This document shows, one piece after another, positions 2,151 through 48,261 of a stretch of DNA of 59,933 nucleotides (position 1 is its first letter; each line of letters starts with the position of its first letter). The stretch is from NCBI GenBank assembly GCA_949296355.1, contig CASFPS010000020.1, positions 1-59,933 on the forward strand, given 5' to 3'. Under the pieces are notes generated by a model. That model saw only the letters and a list, made by a program, of their open reading frames with translations. It made no database searches and was not told the DNA's origin. The position numbers and the translations under genes were made by a program. Source of the stretch: an uncultured bacterium. GTDB taxonomy: Bacteria > Cyanobacteriota > Vampirovibrionia > Gastranaerophilales > Gastranaerophilaceae.

Positions 2151-3464
2151 CTAAATCAATTTTTCCTTTTCTTCTTCTCTTGCTTCGTGTTTTTCTATCA
2201 TTTTCTCCAATTCATCAGGCATTACTGTATTATGTGCTAACCCGACTTTCTGAAGTCCTTTCTTCAATAAATCAACCTCTTTATCCTTAAGTTCTTCATC
2301 AGCCGCAACTATATCTCTATCGTGGTAAATTCCTGCAAGACGAATTGCGTTTTCAGATGGCGAACTTATCTCGTTTTGTTTTTCCTGAACTTTATAACTT
2401 TGCCAGTCTTCTCTGAGTTTCTTTATCGTAGTATATTCTCCCTCTGCTTCAAGACGCTTATCAACTTCTTTTTCCAGAACTTTCTGAACGTATTCTTTTT
2501 GTGACTTAAACCTGCACGGAATAACGATTTCTGTTCCGATTACTTCTTCCGGATCACGCTTTTCGTATTTCTTAAACAATTCCGCTGCAGCCTGCAAGTG
2601 TCCGAGCTCTATATCAAGGAACAATTCCCATGTCTTTTTGATTCTATCGTCCGGCTCATCCTCCATACAGGTATAGTAGTTACAAACCTCGGTAAATTCG
2701 TGAATAAGGAATTTTTCCCACATAGTTTCTGTCGGATCTATTAAAGACTCATACATTGTAACGTGTTCTTCTTCGACATCTTTAATCTCGGCATATGTTT
2801 CTCTTAAGACATGGTCGCCGTACATAAAACCGTGTTCTGCATAATAATTATGGGTTTGCTGCTCACCTGATAAAAGTGTCAGGATATTAACTTTTGTCTG
2901 CGGATGGGCGGTCTTTTTATCATAATGCTTTCTGATTCTCAGCCCGTTGCAGTTATGATGATGCTGGGTAGGACGTCCCACTATAACATCGGTCTGCCCC
3001 TGTACTATATCATCAGGTTCAAAACCTTCTGTCATATAAGCAAACTGAGAATATCTGTATAAATGATCAAAATCCTCAAGGAGCCCGAAGTCAAAAGTCT
3101 CTTTTACATAAGGATCAGGTTCATTCTGCGCCATCCAGGCAGTCAAATCTACCGCAACCTGTTCATATCCCAATGTTGTTTCCAATACGGATTGATCAGC
3201 CGGTCCCATCCAGTTTGCAGTCGCCTGCTGCGAATCTTCTATCCTGCTTATCCTTGCAATAAGTTCTTTATCATTGTTGTCCGGTACAAATCTGTTAAGC
3301 TGGTGTTTAAACCCCCAGGCTTCAACTTCTATACCGTTCATTAAAATTTGTCTTGTTCTGGTATAACAATCAACCTCTACTTTGTTGTAAGGTTTTCCGA
3401 CAATCTGATGCCAGTTTCTTATCTGTTTTTCTACAGGTATACCCTTTTCTTTTAACGGATTCAT
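2151..3464 (-). CDS. Large ferritin-like (diiron-type) protein, uncharacterised
   Basis: A 437-residue soluble protein. Its middle part has several helix-borne acidic/His pairs typical of ferritin-like four-helix bundles: EDFDH at 130-134, EEEH at 231-234, EFTE at 256-259 and ELGH at 286-289. The last 130 residues are charged and coiled-coil-like. Such large ferritin-like proteins are seen in anaerobes and are presumed to bind iron or deal with oxidative stress; substrate and activity are unknown. The ATG follows an AAAGGGG ribosome site. The gene stands alone with its own terminator. The family name is a motif-based inference. Confidence 0.65.
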   Translation of the reverse strand: MNPLKEKGIPVEKQIRNWHQIVGKPYNKVEVDCYTRTRQILMNGIEVEAWGFKHQLNRFVPDNNDKELIARISRIEDSQQATANWMGPADQSVLETTLGYEQVAVDLTAWMAQNEPDPYVKETFDFGLLEDFDHLYRYSQFAYMTEGFEPDDIVQGQTDVIVGRPTQHHHNCNGLRIRKHYDKKTAHPQTKVNILTLLSGEQQTHNYYAEHGFMYGDHVLRETYAEIKDVEEEHVTMYESLIDPTETMWEKFLIHEFTEVCNYYTCMEDEPDDRIKKTWELFLDIELGHLQAAAELFKKYEKRDPEEVIGTEIVIPCRFKSQKEYVQKVLEKEVDKRLEAEGEYTTIKKLREDWQSYKVQEKQNEISSPSENAIRLAGIYHDRDIVAADEELKDKEVDLLKKGLQKVGLAHNTVMPDELEKMIEKHEAREEEKEKLI

Positions 3465-3600
3465 TATATCCCCTTTCTGCAGAATTTTTCTGCATAGTAA
3501 TGGTAATATAATCCAAGATTTTTTGTATTATCCATCCGGGTATTACACGAGAAAGTTATTGTCGGGCTAAAGTCCGATTTATTTGTTAATGTCCAGCGCA

Positions 3601-3731
3601 CCGTCATTCAGAGCCCAACAACAATTCAGGGGTGAAGAATCCCTTTTTTAGGTGAATAGTGAGGAGTGAATAGAGACCGGAATGGTTTGAAGTTATAGAG
3701 ATTCTTCGGGCTCACGCCCTCTGAATGACGG
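3601..3731. repeat. 131-bp MITE-like element with 13-bp perfect inverted ends
   Basis: The ends CCGTCATTCAGAG (3601-3613) and CTCTGAATGACGG (3719-3731) are perfect inverted repeats. Inside lie a heptamer tandem (GTGAATA GTGAGGA GTGAATA, 3652-3672) and the phrase ATTCTTCGGGCTCACGCCCT, which recurs near 57381. No coding sequence. The rest of 3465-3820 holds a partial copy of the 50-bp repeat family (about 3735-3770) and nothing else recognised. Confidence 0.7.
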
Positions 3732-3820
3732 CAAACCTGGCGTGTAGACTACCAGCCCAAAGATTTACCGCATCGTTATATGCTATCTTTTATTCTTCTA
3801 TTGTTAAGAAAAAACAATTT

Positions 3821-3849
3821 TTGTCACCAAACTATATAACATATACAAT
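3821..3849 (+). promoter_or_regulatory. Promoter of the candidate type I toxin
   Basis: TTGTCA (3821-3826), 17-base spacer, TACAAT (3844-3849). Predicted transcription start near 3856 gives a long leader of about 140 nt before the 26-codon peptide at 3998. A long structured leader is usual for type I toxin mRNAs. Confidence 0.65.
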
Positions 3850-3997
3850 GAGGATATGAATCCGAAGAATCTATGTAAAAATATCAAATTTAATGGTAAT
3901 ATTGTTCTACAGGGTAAAAGAGACTCTTTTTAGAAAGGAACTGCTTACAACATTATTTCAAGCTTCGGGTTGGTTCCCGACTAGAAAGGGGGCTGAT

Positions 3998-4078
3998 ATG
4001 AACGATTTCAATTTGAGTTTAATTTTAATCTTTTTGATTTTGTACATATTAAAAAACGGCTCTTATTCTAATAAATAA
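3998..4078 (+). CDS. Candidate type I toxin: 26-residue membrane peptide
   Basis: ATG at 3998 follows a very strong AAAGGGGG ribosome site by 5-6 bases. The peptide is MNDFNLSL, a hydrophobic Leu/Ile-rich core to about residue 18, then a polar tail ending NGSYSNK: one membrane-spanning helix, the shape of Fst/Ldr-type toxins. A longer frame opens at 3893 but has no ribosome site. The mRNA leader contains TTCAAGCTTC (3957-3966), repeated exactly at 4085-4094 inside the region covered by an oppositely directed small RNA. The architecture matches par/Fst loci; sequence family membership is not claimed. Confidence 0.55.
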   Translation: MNDFNLSLILIFLILYILKNGSYSNK

Positions 4079-4131
4079 GAACCGTTCAAGCTTCTAAGAG
4101 TATCCGGCAGTCTGGTAAACTGCCACCCTGT
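4052..4131 (-). ncRNA. Candidate antisense antitoxin RNA
   Basis: A minus-strand promoter at 4138-4166 predicts a start near 4131. The transcript would hold a GGCAGT/ACTGCC stem-loop, then GAAGCTTGAA (complementary to the toxin leader repeat), then a 12-bp hairpin (4056-4083, one G-U pair) followed by a T-run, an intrinsic terminator. Length is about 80 nt. Its 3' part is fully complementary to the toxin mRNA 3' end. Confidence 0.5.
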
Positions 4132-4137
4132 ATTTAT

Positions 4138-4166
4138 ATTATTTACTATAGCGCATATTTTGTCAA
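4138..4166 (-). promoter_or_regulatory. Promoter of the antisense RNA
   Basis: On the minus strand: consensus TTGACA (4166-4161), 17 bases, AATAAT (4143-4138). It lies just downstream of the stop of the hydrolase gene and cannot serve any other gene, since the next minus-strand coding region is far away. Confidence 0.5.
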
Positions 4167-4172
4167 TATTAA

Positions 4173-5069
4173 TTACTCATTAATGAGTGATTTTGCCTCA
4201 GGAATCCGGTTCAACCCAAGATCAATACAGTCAAGTACAATCCGGGCGTAGTCATCATGCATTCCGTAGAATATATGTGACGCTCCCTGAACTTCTATAA
4301 CCCGATTTCCCTCCGGATTTCTTGTCAGGGAATTTAGAGTTTCCATAAATCTTTTAGGGCTTTCGCCAGTTACGGAATCACGTGAGCCTATAATAAATGA
4401 GCCGTTCGGCTTTATGTTATAAAGTGATTGAGTCTCGCCTTCTCCGCTTAAAACAGGGCAGTTTTTGAGATTGTCGGCGTTATAAAATCCGAGAACTGTA
4501 TTTGCTGTCATAGGCGAAAAGCCTCCGAAAAGGAACGGCAGAATATCATCTCCTCTACCTTCTTCAACCCACGATTTTGCCATATCAAAACATTTATCTA
4601 TATTTGGCATAACCCTCCACCAGTGCATGATATCAACTGGACAGGATACGATAAAATAATCCACAAAATCATCAGGCGTGTTCCCTAAATAATGTATGAT
4701 TTTATTTGAGCCGAGAGAATGACCGCCAAGAATTATTTTTTTGAATCCGAGCTCTTTTGCATATTTTACGTAGCTTTCAACATCTTCATATACTTTGCTG
4801 AAATCGTCGTTGAAAACTCCGGCGTGTCTTTGCTTCCCGATTGAAAAATCAGTGTACGCAAAGCAGGAAAAAGAATCATGAGCGTGCGCAATTATACAGG
4901 CAATTCCGTTTTTGCCCAAAAGCTTTCCTGTAGAATACAAAAGTTCGTTTTGAAAAACATTCGAACAAATCCCGGTTATCATAACAAGAACTGTATCAGA
5001 ACTTGTATCTCCAAACATTGCCCCCTTAAGTTCCAAGCCTCTCGGGGTTTTGACTTTTATTATTTCCAT
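4173..5069 (-). CDS. Alpha/beta hydrolase
   Basis: A 298-residue cytoplasmic alpha/beta-hydrolase fold protein. The nucleophile elbow GGHSLGS places the Ser near residue 118; the catalytic His is in GASHIFYGMHDDY near the C-terminus, with an Asp expected in GSRDSVTGE. An oxyanion-type loop (MITGICSN) follows the first strands. The substrate is unknown (esterase or lipase-like). The start is taken as the ATG at 5069: the GTG at 5093 is upstream of the AAGGAG ribosome site. It is the last gene of an operon with the DUF3737 protein (16-base gap) and the 74-residue protein, all divergent from a LysR regulator. Confidence 0.85.
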   Translation of the reverse strand: MEIIKVKTPRGLELKGAMFGDTSSDTVLVMITGICSNVFQNELLYSTGKLLGKNGIACIIAHAHDSFSCFAYTDFSIGKQRHAGVFNDDFSKVYEDVESYVKYAKELGFKKIILGGHSLGSNKIIHYLGNTPDDFVDYFIVSCPVDIMHWWRVMPNIDKCFDMAKSWVEEGRGDDILPFLFGGFSPMTANTVLGFYNADNLKNCPVLSGEGETQSLYNIKPNGSFIIGSRDSVTGESPKRFMETLNSLTRNPEGNRVIEVQGASHIFYGMHDDYARIVLDCIDLGLNRIPEAKSLINE

Positions 5070-5085
5070 TTTCTTTAATTTCTCC

Positions 5086-5964
5086 TTATACACATTTTTT
5101 TAAACAAATATTTTCATTGGAATTGCGTATTAATACTTTTCCGGAGCATTTTATAACCGGTTTTTCAGTAACGATTTCACCAATACTGTCCGCTGCAATA
5201 ACACCTGATTTAGGATTCTTAACCGATACAATATGTCCCTTTATGTCAGCTTCAACATCTGAATATTCAAACGATAGGTCTGTATCTTCCATTGTACAGT
5301 TTATTAATTTTAAGTTTTTACAATAACACAAAGGCTGCGTCCCTGTAATTTTACAGTTTATAAAGGTTAAATTTTCGCTGAACCATCCTAAATACTTACC
5401 TTTTACAACAGAATCTTCTACCGTAACATTCTTGCTGTGCCAGAATGCGTCTTTTGTATCAAGTGTAGAATTTTTGATATGAACATTTTTCATATACTGA
5501 AAAGAATATTTGCCGCTCATTGAAAGGTTATCGATTTCCACATCTTTCGATTCAAAAAGAAAGTACATTGAATCAATGGTTGAATTGGTAATTTTTACTC
5601 CTTTGCATTTCCAGCCGAATTCCGGTGATTCGATTTTGCAATTATCGACCAGAATATGTTTGCATTCTCTAAGACACTTGATACCGTTTATAATGTTATT
5701 TTGCAATTTGCCGTCAAAAGAGTACCACAAAGGCGCACGGGTTTTCTCATCCATAAAAGAATCTTCCAGCGTAAATCTTCTTGCATGCCAGAGCGGATAC
5801 CTTAAAGAAAACGAACAGTTAACAACATTTATCCCTCTGCATTCTTTTAAAACAGACTCACCATCTGCCGGTCCTTCAAATTTGCAGTTCAAAACCTCTG
5901 TATTCTTAATGTTATACAGTGATCTTTCTTCGTTGAATGTTTGATTTGCAATTAGATTTTTCAT
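5086..5964 (-). CDS. DUF3737-type right-handed beta-helix protein
   Basis: A 292-residue protein made of short beta-strand repeats with regularly spaced hydrophobic and Asn/Asp residues (patterns such as NCKFEG, NSTIDS, NCKITG, NCTMED), typical of a parallel beta-helix and of the DUF3737 family. No enzymatic residues are evident; function unknown. The ATG at 5964 is chosen because GGAG lies 9 bases upstream; the ATG at 5973 abuts the ribosome site. It sits between the 74-residue gene and the hydrolase gene; this trio beside a regulator suggests a regulated sugar or surface process, which is inference. Confidence 0.8.
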   Translation of the reverse strand: MKNLIANQTFNEERSLYNIKNTEVLNCKFEGPADGESVLKECRGINVVNCSFSLRYPLWHARRFTLEDSFMDEKTRAPLWYSFDGKLQNNIINGIKCLRECKHILVDNCKIESPEFGWKCKGVKITNSTIDSMYFLFESKDVEIDNLSMSGKYSFQYMKNVHIKNSTLDTKDAFWHSKNVTVEDSVVKGKYLGWFSENLTFINCKITGTQPLCYCKNLKLINCTMEDTDLSFEYSDVEADIKGHIVSVKNPKSGVIAADSIGEIVTEKPVIKCSGKVLIRNSNENICLKKCV

Positions 5965-39619: not shown

Positions 39620-42391
39620 TTATTCTTCTTTTTTAGCATCAGCATCAGCTTTTTCAAATTCTCCGGTTTCAACGTTGTATTCATATTTTATTCCGTCTTT
39701 TTCAACAATGAATGGATAGTTTGTTAAGTCTGATTCTGAATATGTGAATCCTTCATTTTGCATTTTCAGCATTGCCTCAGCTCGAATTGCATCAGGATCA
39801 TCCCTGTTTATGGCTTTTCCGTCCGGAGTGAAGTCTGCATCCGTATCTTCTGCACTTTCTGCCTGCACAAAAGAATTAAATTCTTGAGCGACAGGATCCC
39901 AGATATAAAGATATGTGCCCATAGGAGTACTTTGAGTGTAAGCACCCGTCATATCAGTACTGCTTAAACCTTGTGCTGCAGCTGCTTCATCCGGAGAAAC
40001 AGGAGCTTCTTCAGTTTTTTCCGGAATTAATTCTTCTGCAAGATTATCAAGCTCTTTGTTCAGGTTAGCAATGATATCATCTTCATTCTGGTATTCTTTC
40101 AATTCGACTTTTAAGCCTTCAATGTCGCCTTCAAAAGGAGTACCATCTTCGTTAGTATAGACTTCATTGCCATCCTGATCTGTATTTTTATAGACACGAT
40201 TGCCGTCAGCATCTGTATAAGCTGCACCATTTTCATCTACTACAGGGAAGCCCATTACAGCACTTAAGTCCTCATCAGTACCTTCGTATGCCGTACCGTC
40301 TTGATATGCATAGCTGATATTGCCTTCTTCATCAACATTTTGGAATACATAGTTGCTGTCTGCATCCTTAAACATTAATCGACCTTCAGCATCACTCATT
40401 TGCTGTAAATCAGAAGGTTTTACTTCTGCCATTTCAGCACTGGTTTCGTTAGCTCCGCTGATTATATCTTTTACAGTAGAATCAAGATCATATACTGCCA
40501 GCTGTAATTTCTCAAGCTTTGTAAGTTCTTCGCCGTTTTCAGCTTTTTCTTTTAATGCTTCATATTCTTCAGCGCTGATTCGGTAATCTGAGCTTCCATC
40601 CCATTCAAATATAGCTTTTAAACCATCAAGCAGCATATCTCTGCGTGCCATTACCTGCTCATACACACGCATTTGAAATTCATTCATCTGCTCAACATAA
40701 TCATTATCATGGACCATACTGTTATTGCTATTATCGGATTGGTCAGTATTATTGTAAGAGCCCTCTATGTTATTAGAACCCGTCGTTGTGTTGTTTGAAT
40801 CCGTTGTAGTCGTTGTATTATTTGAATCAGTATAGTTATTGGTTACGTCGTTTGTTGTTGTATTACCGGAGTTATTGCCGTCTCCATTTGTATTTCCTGT
40901 TCCGTTTCCGGTGTTTCCGTCACCGGTTGTGTTATTATTGCCGGCATTTGCTAATTGTTCTTTTAATGCTTCAATCTCAGCTTTTAATGCTTCAACTTCA
41001 TCTGTATCTTCTGTTTCTTCCGGCGCAATACCTGTATTACCGACAATTAAACCTTTTAACTCTTCTATCTGAGCTTTTAAGTCGTCGATTTCATCACGTA
41101 ATTCCTGATTTTCTTCTTCTACAGGAGTTCTTAGAGCGTTAGCATTGTCAGCTGCTTCTTGAGACTTTTCAGCTGCTTTTTTTGCTTCTTCGGCATCAGC
41201 AAGTGCTTTTTCGGCATTAGCTTTTGCTTGTTCAGCCATATCTAAGGCAAATTGTGATTCTTCAACTTGTGCTGCTAATTCTTGAACTTTAGCGGAAGCT
41301 TCTTGAACTTCCTGAGCAAGTTTTTCGGCTTCTTCTGCAGCCTTGGCGGCTTTTTCAGCAGTGTCATTTGCTTTTTGAATAGCATCTTCTTTGTTCTTTT
41401 GTGCAGTTTCCATGTCTGCCTGAGCTTTTTCAAAAGCGGCATTTGCTTCTTCAAGCTTAGCCTGGGCCTCTTCAAGTTTAGCTTGTGCTTCTTCAAGAGC
41501 CGCTTTCTTCTCTTCAAGTATTGCTTGTTTTTCTTCAAGAATAGCCTGTTTAGCTTCCAGATCAGCCTGTTTAGCCTCTAAATCAGCCTGTTTAGCTTCT
41601 AAATTTGCTTGTTTTTCTTTAAGAACAGCCTGTTTTTCTGCTAATACAGCTTCTTTTTCTGCCAGTTTAGCTTGTGCTTCTTGAAGTTTAGCTTGTGCTT
41701 CTTCAAGAGCTTGTTTGGCTGTCGCGTATGCAGGGTTTGGTACAGATCTGGTTCCGGTCTTTTTATTTCCTTCGGAGTCTACATAAGTGTATGTTTCTGT
41801 TATAGTCTCGGGTGTATTGTTTAAAGTTGCTTGAGCAGCATCAACTTCTGCCTGCGCACTGTTAACTTCTCCTTGAGCAGCATCAACTTCTGCCTGCGCA
41901 GCGTCAACTTCTCCTTGTGCGGTATCAACTTCTCCTTGTGCGGTTGTAACCTCATTTTGCGCAGTCTCAACCTCTCCTTGAGCGGTTTCTACATCACTTT
42001 GAGCAGTGTCGACATCTGCCTGTGCAGTATCAACTTCTCCTTGCGCTGTATCAACTTCTCCTTGTGCGGTTTCGACTTCTGTTTCAGCTTCTGCTCTTGC
42101 CGTTTCAGCTTCAGCTTTTGCAGTTTCTGCTGCATCATAATCTGCTTGTGCCTGTGTTGCTGCGGCTTCGGCATTCAGTGCATCCTGGGCATAAGTTTGA
42201 GCTTCTGTTTTGATTTGATTCACCTGTGCTGTTAAGTCAGCAACTCTTTCTGTTGCTTCTAATACAGCCTGCTCATCTTCTGTAAGTTTTAACTCACCAT
42301 CAACAGCATCGTCTGTCTTAGCCTTTACTTCTTTTGACCAGTACTCAATCAAGCAGTCATAATTGGTATAATTGTTACCGTCTATCTTCAT
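39620..42391 (-). CDS. Giant heptad-repeat coiled-coil protein
   Basis: A 923-residue acidic protein. Residues 60-450 are a nearly unbroken coiled coil; AQGEVDT-type heptads (about 100-185) and LEAKQAD-type heptads (about 240-320) are repeated almost exactly, as 21-bp DNA repeats. An Asn/Thr/Gly-rich linker follows (about 475-555), then a globular part with repeated DxDGNxVYxN motifs (about 690-770), like short beta-hairpin repeats. There is no signal peptide, so it may be a cytoplasmic scaffold or leave by an unusual route. No family is recognised. The N-terminus MKIDGNNYTNYDCLIEYW is Asn-rich like other short-leader proteins here. Ribosome site GGAGAG. Confidence 0.75.
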   Translation of the reverse strand: MKIDGNNYTNYDCLIEYWSKEVKAKTDDAVDGELKLTEDEQAVLEATERVADLTAQVNQIKTEAQTYAQDALNAEAAATQAQADYDAAETAKAEAETARAEAETEVETAQGEVDTAQGEVDTAQADVDTAQSDVETAQGEVETAQNEVTTAQGEVDTAQGEVDAAQAEVDAAQGEVNSAQAEVDAAQATLNNTPETITETYTYVDSEGNKKTGTRSVPNPAYATAKQALEEAQAKLQEAQAKLAEKEAVLAEKQAVLKEKQANLEAKQADLEAKQADLEAKQAILEEKQAILEEKKAALEEAQAKLEEAQAKLEEANAAFEKAQADMETAQKNKEDAIQKANDTAEKAAKAAEEAEKLAQEVQEASAKVQELAAQVEESQFALDMAEQAKANAEKALADAEEAKKAAEKSQEAADNANALRTPVEEENQELRDEIDDLKAQIEELKGLIVGNTGIAPEETEDTDEVEALKAEIEALKEQLANAGNNNTTGDGNTGNGTGNTNGDGNNSGNTTTNDVTNNYTDSNNTTTTTDSNNTTTGSNNIEGSYNNTDQSDNSNNSMVHDNDYVEQMNEFQMRVYEQVMARRDMLLDGLKAIFEWDGSSDYRISAEEYEALKEKAENGEELTKLEKLQLAVYDLDSTVKDIISGANETSAEMAEVKPSDLQQMSDAEGRLMFKDADSNYVFQNVDEEGNISYAYQDGTAYEGTDEDLSAVMGFPVVDENGAAYTDADGNRVYKNTDQDGNEVYTNEDGTPFEGDIEGLKVELKEYQNEDDIIANLNKELDNLAEELIPEKTEEAPVSPDEAAAAQGLSSTDMTGAYTQSTPMGTYLYIWDPVAQEFNSFVQAESAEDTDADFTPDGKAINRDDPDAIRAEAMLKMQNEGFTYSESDLTNYPFIVEKDGIKYEYNVETGEFEKADADAKKEE
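41455..42085. repeat. In-frame 21-bp minisatellite inside the coiled-coil gene
   Basis: Two blocks of tandem 21-base units: 41870-42085 (encoding AQxEVxx heptads) and 41455-41700 (LEAKQAx / LEEAQAK heptads). Units differ by a few bases, so unit number could vary between strains by slippage without changing frame. Confidence 0.7.
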
Positions 42392-45158: not shown

Positions 45159-45306
45159 CAATCTTCTCCTTACCAATCTGATTAATCACATTATATCATG
45201 TATTAATTTTAAAACGATTAACTATTACTAATTGTAAATTTTTTAAAACAACTAGCAAAAAAATAAATTATCAGTTTTAAAATAATATGTATTAAGGAGA
45301 AATTAA

Positions 45307-48261
45307 GTGATATTAAGTGTTAATTCTGCGGACAGAGTCTTTTGCTTAAAGCCGGTTGTTAAAAAGTCAGACAATAAGAACAACAATGCTCTTATTACAA
45401 CAAGTGATAACAATGATATTAAAGGTGTTCCGAGAAGTTATATTACCTTTAAACAAAAAGAGGAAAGTAAAATTAATTTTACAGAAGATGCGGAACATCT
45501 GCTAAATGGTGCCCGTGAAGTTGCAATGCGGTATCACCATACGGAAATATTGCCGCAGCACATAATACAGGCGTCTATAGAGGAGACACGGAATAATATA
45601 GAAGCTTTAGGAGAAGAAACTCTGGATACGGGCGCATTTGCTAGTGTTTCTGTATTAAGCCGCCTTGCTAATGATTATGCGAAGGTCAATCTGCTTTCTA
45701 CAAGTGAAAACAGACAATTTTTAAATTTAATGCTTTATGATTTGGAAGTGAGCAACAAGGAATCTTTAAATAATATTCATGCAGATGCTGAAGGTTCTGT
45801 TGATGAACTTAATCTCTCGACACCGTTGGAAAAGAAGCTGCAAGAATTGGAAAAAAATATGCATTCTGTTAATGCTTATGTACTTCTCGGTACGGCAATG
45901 AATACGCTTACTGCAGAGAATATTCTGTATCCGACGGAATTCCTCGGGAGTTTAATCAGTTTTTCGGCATATAAAAGTTCAGAAAATGTAAATAAGAATT
46001 ATATTAAAGCTTACGATAATAAAGCTATAGAGGTGTGGAACAAGCTTGCTCTGGGCTCTAACATGATAGTAACATACAGTGACTCAAAAGAAGCAGACAG
46101 AATTACTGCGAGTATTCTTAAAACAATAAATCGTCCGAAATACGGTAACTTCAATGATAAAAATACGGTTATGTATGTAATGGCGGATGATATAACTGAT
46201 GTTAGCATGCTTCAGGAACTTACAGATTTAAAAGAATCATTGCCGGACGTTCGTAAGATTGTAATGGCAAATTTTGATAACCTGCTTATAAATTCCGGCA
46301 ATAAAGATGAACTTGAGACCTTTAATAATCTTGCCGGCATTGTTAGAAGTTCTGATGAGAATTTAAAACTTATTCTTTTCCAGAAGGATAATGTTTATTA
46401 CAAGTTAAAGTCAGAGCCTGCTATGGAGGCGGTATATAAGAATACGGTTACTTATGCAATTCCGCAGATTCAAACTTATGAAGCGCGTGCAATGCTGAAT
46501 AAGAATATGCTTAAGGATGTCAAAACTCCGTTTACAAAAGAGGCTAAGGACAGAGCAGTTTTCCATGCCGCAAATTTAGACGGGATTTTTCCGGATAAAG
46601 CGGTTGATTTGATGAAAAGAATTGCAAACTATTATGGTAATTCAAAAAAGAAAATTACTGCCGCTGATGTTGATGAATTTGCGCAAATCGGATACGAGTT
46701 GTTTAAAAATAAATCAGACCAGTCTAAAATTGTCTATGACACGGGAAAAACTCTGGAGTCTTTATATGGAAAAGAGACGACCAAAAAAGATATTGAAGCT
46801 ATAATAAGACAAATCAAAACCGGCAAAATCGGAACAAGAGGTATAATTATTTCATCAAAGGATAATGAAGCCGGTTCAGGCAGAAAATACACAGCGGAAA
46901 CTATAGCGGGAGAAGCCAAAGTTCCGTTTATTGCAATAGATACAGCGGATTTTGCTCTGTCGAAAAGGGATTCTTCCGGTGTGACATTAGATTCTCCGAA
47001 AAATCAAATGAGCAGAATTTTTGCCGAGGCAAAGAATGCGGCAAGGCAGAATCAGTATAAAACAGCGATAATTTATGTGAATAATTTTGAAGAATTTGCC
47101 TTTTCAAATCCGTATTTACCAGGATATAAACAGGCAATGTCCCAGCTTGCTAATGAAATGCAGGATGCTGAGCATGAGGATATAAGTATTCTGGTTATTG
47201 CTTCTACTGATGAAGATTATGCGCAATATATTCCTAAATTCGTCAGAGGTTTTAATCAATCTTTGTCGGTTGATTCTCCTGCATTTAATAAGAGAGGAAG
47301 AAAAGAAATTCTTGAGCATCGGATAAATGAAGTAGGCTTACCGCTTTCATATAAGACATTAAAAGACAAAGAACATTTGATTGAGCGACTGGTTAAACTT
47401 ACTGAATATATGTCTTTTGTAGAAATAAAATCTCTTGTGGATAAGACTAGTCAGATTATGTATGAGAGGAATAAGCAAAAAGCTTCTATCGGCGAGTTTA
47501 TAGAAGCGTATTTGCAGCTTGTAACGGGAAGAACTTCACGTCCGGAGACACCGGAGTATAACAAACAGCTAACTACTTCTCACGAGTGCGGACATGCAAC
47601 AAACCTGGAAGTTATGAATGATATTTTAAAACGCAAAGGACAGCCATGGCATCAGTTCAGGAATGTTAATTTTATAACATTAGACCCTAGAGGAGATTTC
47701 TTGGGTGCGGTATTTGAGGACAGCTCCGATAATACAACATTTCCTTTTGAGGCTCTGTTTACTGCGCTAGTATGCTCATATGGCGGTTACTCCAGTGAAA
47801 AATTCTTCTTTAATATTAACGGTTCTGCCGGAATTTCACAGGATCTGGCACAGGCAACCGCTGCTGCAAAACGGGGTATAGAATACTTCGGTTTCGGGCA
47901 TAATACCGGAAAAATCTCTAATGCAGTGAAGATTCAGTCTCCAACATTTTATGAAAAAGTTTATAAGGATTTAGATATTATACTTGAAAATGCAAAATCT
48001 GCTTCTGATTTGATTACAGAAACATTTAAGTCGTTTAATGAGTGGTTTACGAATAAATATTCAAAACTCATAGGTTCAAACGATTGTATGGTTGACGGTG
48101 ATGAATTCAGACGTTCACTCCAAAACTGGAGGAAATCTCTCAGTGCTGATAAGAAAGAAGAAATTAATATTCTGGAAGATATGATTATGGATATTATTGA
48201 CTCTTCCAAAAAAGGGATTAAATACGGACAGCTTAAAGCAATAAAAAAAGCGGTAAAATAA
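45307..48261 (+). CDS. ClpN / degenerate AAA / M41 metalloprotease fusion
   Basis: A 984-residue protein. Residues 55-190 resemble a Clp N-terminal repeat domain (FTEDAEHLLNGAREVAMRYHH then ILPQHI). Two AAA-like regions follow (about 230-480 and 490-740). In the second, the Walker A site is EAGSGRKYT (521-529) rather than GPPGTGKT, and the Walker B position is IIYVNN (588-593), without the Asp-Glu pair, so ATP hydrolysis is unlikely. The C-terminus is an FtsH-type M41 zinc protease: HECGH at 759-763, third ligand Asp846 in ISQDLAQAT, preceded by GGYSSEKFFF. No membrane segment is present, unlike FtsH. The start is GTG after AAGGAG. The N-terminus has the polar leader ending ITFKQKE. Function unknown; regulated or chaperone-like proteolysis is inferred. 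Confidence 0.75.
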   Translation: MILSVNSADRVFCLKPVVKKSDNKNNNALITTSDNNDIKGVPRSYITFKQKEESKINFTEDAEHLLNGAREVAMRYHHTEILPQHIIQASIEETRNNIEALGEETLDTGAFASVSVLSRLANDYAKVNLLSTSENRQFLNLMLYDLEVSNKESLNNIHADAEGSVDELNLSTPLEKKLQELEKNMHSVNAYVLLGTAMNTLTAENILYPTEFLGSLISFSAYKSSENVNKNYIKAYDNKAIEVWNKLALGSNMIVTYSDSKEADRITASILKTINRPKYGNFNDKNTVMYVMADDITDVSMLQELTDLKESLPDVRKIVMANFDNLLINSGNKDELETFNNLAGIVRSSDENLKLILFQKDNVYYKLKSEPAMEAVYKNTVTYAIPQIQTYEARAMLNKNMLKDVKTPFTKEAKDRAVFHAANLDGIFPDKAVDLMKRIANYYGNSKKKITAADVDEFAQIGYELFKNKSDQSKIVYDTGKTLESLYGKETTKKDIEAIIRQIKTGKIGTRGIIISSKDNEAGSGRKYTAETIAGEAKVPFIAIDTADFALSKRDSSGVTLDSPKNQMSRIFAEAKNAARQNQYKTAIIYVNNFEEFAFSNPYLPGYKQAMSQLANEMQDAEHEDISILVIASTDEDYAQYIPKFVRGFNQSLSVDSPAFNKRGRKEILEHRINEVGLPLSYKTLKDKEHLIERLVKLTEYMSFVEIKSLVDKTSQIMYERNKQKASIGEFIEAYLQLVTGRTSRPETPEYNKQLTTSHECGHATNLEVMNDILKRKGQPWHQFRNVNFITLDPRGDFLGAVFEDSSDNTTFPFEALFTALVCSYGGYSSEKFFFNINGSAGISQDLAQATAAAKRGIEYFGFGHNTGKISNAVKIQSPTFYEKVYKDLDIILENAKSASDLITETFKSFNEWFTNKYSKLIGSNDCMVDGDEFRRSLQNWRKSLSADKKEEINILEDMIMDIIDSSKKGIKYGQLKAIKKAVK

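Follow-up and report, generated by a model that had tools for sequence, protein, structure and literature searches.

FtsH-type enzymes are described in the literature as ATP-dependent membrane proteases. A 984-aa gene of Candidatus Gastranaerophilales, relatives of cyanobacteria that live in the gut, raises the question of whether a protease of this kind can dispense with both its membrane anchor and its motor. The gene lies in a 59,933-nucleotide stretch of DNA, referred to here as the window, as a single open frame with a GTG start (Table 1); its named relatives are metagenome assemblies from the same group as the host. The product scored above the Pfam cutoffs for Peptidase_M41 (45.9 bits, cutoff of 29.9) and AAA (28.8 bits, cutoff of 21.2) and reached 74.5 against a cutoff of 600 with the NCBIfam FtsH model. 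A 19-residue Kyte-Doolittle scan found no membrane segment, N-terminal anchor included, with a top mean of 1.00 versus 2.59 for the normal membrane FtsH that is the only other M41 protein of the host genome. A preliminary description made from the sequence alone had proposed a membrane-less protein with an HECGH motif at residues 759 to 763, Asp846 as third zinc ligand, and degenerate Walker A (EAGSGRKYT, residues 521 to 529) and Walker B (IIYVNN, residues 588 to 593) motifs, and each of these features was found as proposed.

Table 1. Features of the 984-aa gene and its predicted product (window coordinates)
Feature	Position	Strand	Basis
Gene of 984 aa, predicted to encode a soluble M41 protease whose two AAA domains are degenerate	45307..48261	+	ORF, Pfam, alignment, tree
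AAGGAG, ribosome-binding-site-like, 7 bases upstream of the GTG start	45294..45299	+	Sequence
Variable tail at the N terminus (residues 1-54), short conserved motif at its end	45307..45468	+	Clade alignment
All-helical ClpN-like domain, residues ~55-228	45469..45990	+	Profile matches and model, moderate support
Clp/Hsp104 NBD1-like AAA domain without Walker A, residues ~229-475	45991..46731	+	Profiles, model, alignment
FtsH-type AAA domain and lid, ATPase motifs gone, residues ~478-740	46738..47526	+	Pfam, model, alignment
Degenerate Walker A, EAGSGRKYT, with Arg526 for Lys and Lys527 for Thr	46867..46893	+	Arg in 55/55
Degenerate Walker B, IIYVNN, with Asn593 for the catalytic Glu	47068..47085	+	Glu in 0/55
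Second region of homology, FVRGFNQ in place of RPGRFDR of FtsH, Arg fingers missing	47227..47271	+	Alignment
M41 metalloprotease domain, residues ~741-984	47527..48258	+	Pfam, model
Zinc-binding/catalytic motif HECGH, residues 759-763	47581..47595	+	55/55
Asp846, third zinc ligand	47842..47844	+	55/55

Profiles and structure models predict that the protein consists, in order, of a ClpN-like part, a Clp-type AAA domain and an FtsH-type AAA domain that both lack their motifs, and an M41 domain that looks intact. The C-terminal half was modeled from a 31-sequence alignment (mean pLDDT of 80) that included canonical FtsH rows, which biases the model toward the FtsH fold. With those rows in the alignment, the model matched apo-FtsH in Foldseek (E = 1.1e-20) and FtsH with a VIA Z score of 24.6 over 409 residues; the rmsd of 9.7 presumably reflects two domains that are set differently. 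The M41 fold, whose absence would have told against the preliminary description, was recovered together with the FtsH AAA fold. Independently of the model, a 24-member diverse profile reached FtsH at an E value of 1e-45 across AAA and M41. A full-length AlphaFold model built from six sequences had pLDDT values mostly of 60 to 90 in the N-terminal part and below 50 in the C-terminal half, for which the model with more rows was used instead. Residues 55 to 390 of the full-length model resembled the Hsp104 N domain plus NBD1 (Z = 13.9 over 275 residues), with an overall rmsd of 19, indicating that domain placement differs between the model and Hsp104. Residues 231 to 467 resembled ClpC1 NBD1 (Z = 11.1, rmsd of 12.4), and residues 488 to 653 resembled the FtsH AAA domain (Z = 11.9, rmsd of 3.1).

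The N-terminal Clp repeat-like domain of the preliminary description holds up in part: the structural match to the Hsp104 N domain and NBD1 supports it, the sequence support is weak, and a second degenerate AAA domain resembling Clp NBD1 had been overlooked. Pfam matched Clp_N in 2 of 15 family members (best E value of 0.019) and in 2 of 24 (best E value of 0.064), did not match it in the window protein itself, and matched AAA_lid_9 in two family members (E = 1.6e-6). With hhalign, the ClpN part of the genus members aligned with Clp proteins at an E value of 2e-5 over just 37 columns, and the N-terminal part of the live basal paralogs described below aligned with ClpB/ClpC at 96% probability (E = 1.9e-9), both being single-comparison E values. 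The ClpN identity, which owes most to a modest model and a single short alignment of profiles, is suggested by structure and weakly by sequence. A Walker A motif, GxxxxGK[ST], was absent from residues 1 to 475 of every aligned sequence. The host genome also encodes ClpC- and ClpB-type ATPases and, apart from these genes, an open frame of 454 aa that contains five Clp_N repeats (G000:C7:3824-5104; L073-L078).

To place these losses, 72 sequences were aligned, of which 55, some from closely related genomes, share the degenerate P-loop and the remaining 17 are paralogs and canonical FtsH. In a tree of 71 of the 72, a single branch (support of 100/100) separates the 55 from all others, and the clade is monophyletic; the tree program warned of two long branches meeting near this split, so that the exact sister of the clade is not fixed. 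Every homolog within the clade lacks the Walker residues, as the preliminary description had anticipated, and close paralogs with canonical Walker motifs, all from other genomes, lie on separate branches. All 55 clade members have Arg in place of the Walker A Lys, and none has the Ser/Thr that should follow. The Walker B Asp is kept in 3/55 and replaced in 52/55, and the Walker B Glu is present in 0/55. In the window protein, the second region of homology also lacks its Arg fingers. The aromatic-aliphatic-Gly pore loop occurs in none of the 55 versus 14 of the 17 other sequences; canonical FtsH and the live paralogs retain this loop along with Walker A and Walker B. His759, Glu760, His763, Asp846, and also Glu831 are each present in all 55. 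By sequence, neither AAA domain can hydrolyze ATP in the usual way, and the pore loop that pulls on substrate is gone.

The degenerate AAA part is not decaying. Nei-Gojobori dN/dS ratios for five close pairs were 0.09 to 0.15 overall and 0.04 to 0.09 in the AAA part, which indicates that the latter is maintained by purifying selection. The modified P-loop GxGR is invariant (55/55), and the invariant Arg526 implies that the P-loop itself is under constraint rather than drifting freely; the site may still bind some ligand. The zinc site and the dead AAA fold are both under selection. A pseudogene or sequencing artifact was ruled out by open frames in dozens of genomes and dN/dS well below 1, canonical Walker motifs concealed by misalignment by the 55/55 pattern and the ease with which the live paralogs align, and chance loss of the motifs by their uniform absence from the aligned clade. 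Separately, comparison of window positions 45307 to 48258 with an 88% identical relative (L033:2820-5771) gave dS values of 0.24 in the N-terminal half, 0.41 in the M41 part, and 1.09 in the AAA part, and this unevenness suggests recombination inside the gene.

Of 286 genomes of the order searched with a profile, about 87 had a long relative of the dead type, in many genera and two families; this count was made by eye at scores of >500, excluded live basal forms, and covers more sequences than were aligned. Among 194 genomes across the phylum, matches at an E value of 1e-85 were confined to the host's own family, and none of these 194 had a member outside the order. Related Gastranaerophilales genomes also encode soluble paralogs of 725 to 869 aa with a live ATPase, i.e., with Walker A, Walker B, and pore loop intact. 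Those of the 725- to 770-aa type are found in 10/286 genomes, and the dead form accompanies them in 9 of these 10. Soluble M41 paralogs of 725 to 769 aa with canonical Walker A/B and pore loop (L079-L084, in G162, G116, G115, G120, G258, and G246) are mostly a second such protein in genomes that have the dead form too. Since the soluble paralogs keep a canonical FtsH-type ATPase, the motor was probably lost once, in the lineage that also carries the ClpN-like part. The N-terminal part spans 72 to 391 residues in the live paralogs and 474 to 536 in the dead clade, save for one of 185 residues whose gene is cut by a contig end; this difference suggests that the ClpN-like part goes together with the dead clade. 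Three intermediates (family f3; L085, L086, and L021) retain Walker A, have Asp for the Walker B Glu, and have lost the Arg fingers and pore loop; they could represent a second, independent step toward motor loss.

In the host genus, the gene stands alone on the opposite strand between a PpiC-type foldase gene and ssb. Five species of the genus without the gene (G003, G009, G015, G026, and G033) have the PpiC-type gene and ssb adjacent and codirectional, about 40 to 180 bases apart. The simplest reading is a single-gene insertion, and precise loss of the gene from this interval is a possible alternative. Two genomes filed in the host genus (G025 and G280) have versions that group with other genera and sit at other places. 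The GC content of the gene is normal for the region (0.363 versus 0.371). Comparison of neighbors across genera found no conserved neighbor or operon outside the host genus, no ATPase gene as a conserved neighbor, and no defense gene among the repeated neighbors. The gene is accessory and is often moved or lost. An anti-phage role was rejected: PADLOC had no match for the window protein and gave mainly generic AAA matches (IetA, TRIP13) in 3 of 15 members. A plasmid or phage gene was likewise rejected, as searches gave FtsH-level matches only and no full-length relative. Canonical FtsH was common on IMG/VR viral contigs, with 97 matching stretches (L188-L267) about 25% identical to the window protein.

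The N-terminal tail ends in SYITFKQ in the window protein and usually in xSF[KTS]G across the family, and F48 is kept in >95% of the dead clade within an otherwise variable tail. The motif is also found in the live soluble paralogs and is absent from canonical FtsH. Among 410 nonredundant unrelated proteins of at least 230 aa, from genomes sampled as stretches, 10 had a similar motif in residues 10 to 70, compared to 3, 3, and 1 in the next three intervals. Some of these ten are signal peptides or chance matches, and we treat a sorting tag as a lead only. Several unrelated Gastranaerophilales proteins (DEAD helicase, HNH, RelA/SpoT-like, HD hydrolase, and others) resemble the protease family in beginning with M[KRI]IxxI followed by a variable linker and [ST]F[KTS]G, possibly a lineage-specific sorting tag (L116:273-2501 and 2494-5187; L088:5375-7516; L092:795-1844; L109:2768-3751; L111:8836-9633; L119:5699-6424; L171:3404-3823; L176:2-1447; L177:4164-4523). 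At L116:273-8116, three overlapping or adjacent genes, for an HNH protein, a DEAD-DSHCT helicase, and a dead-motor protease, each carry the N-terminal motif. The window also encodes a 923-aa low-complexity coiled-coil protein (39620-42391) with an Asn/Thr-rich linker and the N terminus MKIDGNNYTNY.

How might such a protein work? The reading that we favor, at somewhat better than even confidence, is a cytosolic ATP-independent M41 peptidase for unfolded polypeptides, with the pseudo-AAA parts as scaffold or gate, the M41 counterpart of LonC. LonC, which assembles as a hexamer, has no ATPase activity, yet each hexamer binds six nucleotides, and it needs no ATP to degrade unfolded substrates (PMC3391209). 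Even FtsH has been described as having no robust unfoldase activity (PMC8197885). By analogy, the AAA modules would serve as an oligomerization scaffold and entry gate over the M41 ring, the oligomer being assumed from FtsH and Clp; the ClpN-like part would bind substrate or an adaptor; and already unfolded or short polypeptides would diffuse in and be cut without ATP, as in LonC. An extended version, in which a lineage-wide, energy-free M41 class uses its two AAA modules as a static gate, has Arg selected in place of the P-loop Lys, and is sent to a site in the cell by a lineage-specific N-terminal tag shared with unrelated enzymes, strikes us as unlikely.

The dead subunit could instead mix with or dock on an active ATPase (canonical FtsH, ClpC, ClpB, or one of the live soluble paralogs), which would unfold substrate and pass it on. 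FtsH-type heterocomplexes are known in plants and mitochondria (PMC9020784), the host genome encodes FtsH as well as ClpC- and ClpB-type ATPases, and nearly all genomes with a live paralog of the 725- to 770-aa type have the dead form too. Yet a live soluble paralog is missing from most of the approximately 87 genomes that carry the dead form, the host's only other M41 protein is membrane bound, and no ATPase gene is among the conserved neighbors; moreover, the pore loop is gone as well, and a partner within the ring would still need a continuous pore path. We consider a partner-driven enzyme rather unlikely. It seems quite unlikely that the pseudo-AAA site acts as a switch by binding a nucleotide or other phosphate ligand without hydrolysis. 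The invariance of GxGR and the nucleotides that LonC binds despite lacking ATPase activity (PMC3391209) favor such a switch, but the Walker A Lys and Ser/Thr that contact phosphate and magnesium are replaced throughout, and nearly all members have lost the Walker B Asp. Least probable, and in our judgment improbable, is a targeted accessory factor, for which the shared tail motif would act as a sorting signal that brings this and other proteins to one specific location, perhaps an ATP-poor one beyond the cytosol. The retention of F48, the excess of similar motifs near the N termini of unrelated proteins, and the patchy distribution at different places in different genera fit this idea, but the motif is short and matches no known signal, and its presence in live ATP-using paralogs speaks for a compartment with ATP.

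The 984-aa protein shares with FtsH the order and fold of AAA, lid, and M41, the HExxH motif, the third-ligand Asp, and a PRGxxLG segment; unlike FtsH, it has no membrane anchor, Walker residues, Arg fingers, or FVG pore loop, has extra ClpN- and Clp-NBD1-like parts, and falls far below the NCBIfam cutoff. By profile and model, it is an M41 protease and not FtsH proper. Like ClpA, ClpB, ClpC, and Hsp104, it has a putative N domain and, after it, an NBD1-like AAA domain whose lid resembles AAA_lid_9, but this NBD1 lacks Walker motifs, FtsH-type AAA and M41 domains replace NBD2, and the protein has a protease of its own. The live soluble paralogs share the N-terminal motif, soluble AAA and M41 domains, and, in basal ones, an NBD1-like N-terminal part, whereas their N-terminal parts are 100 to 250 residues shorter, with no detectable ClpN part. 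LonC (MtaLonC) also has a degenerate AAA module before an intact protease, but a Ser-Lys protease of Lon fold, making it a parallel case and not a relative. Plant FtsHi and Ycf2 motor subunits are, as here, FtsH-derived with one of two activities lost. FtsHi is membrane bound and has lost the protease, a contrast that the preliminary description drew correctly (PMC8197885, PMC9020784), whereas the protein here is soluble and has lost the ATPase motifs. The novelty claimed for it stands within M41, as we found no M41 protease without an ATPase motor, soluble FtsH, or M41-ClpN fusion described in the open-access literature, and is qualified by LonC, a Lon-family enzyme with the equivalent loss (PMC3391209).

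If our reading is true, this would be the first FtsH-type protease known to do without a motor of its own, and the motor would be missing across a whole old gene lineage. The clade would mirror plant FtsHi and would be, after LonC in the Lon family, a second and independent instance of such a loss. It poses a testable general question, namely, what role is left for an AAA ring in a protease that is unable to burn ATP, and the live paralogs in the same order would offer a natural before-and-after comparison for motor loss.
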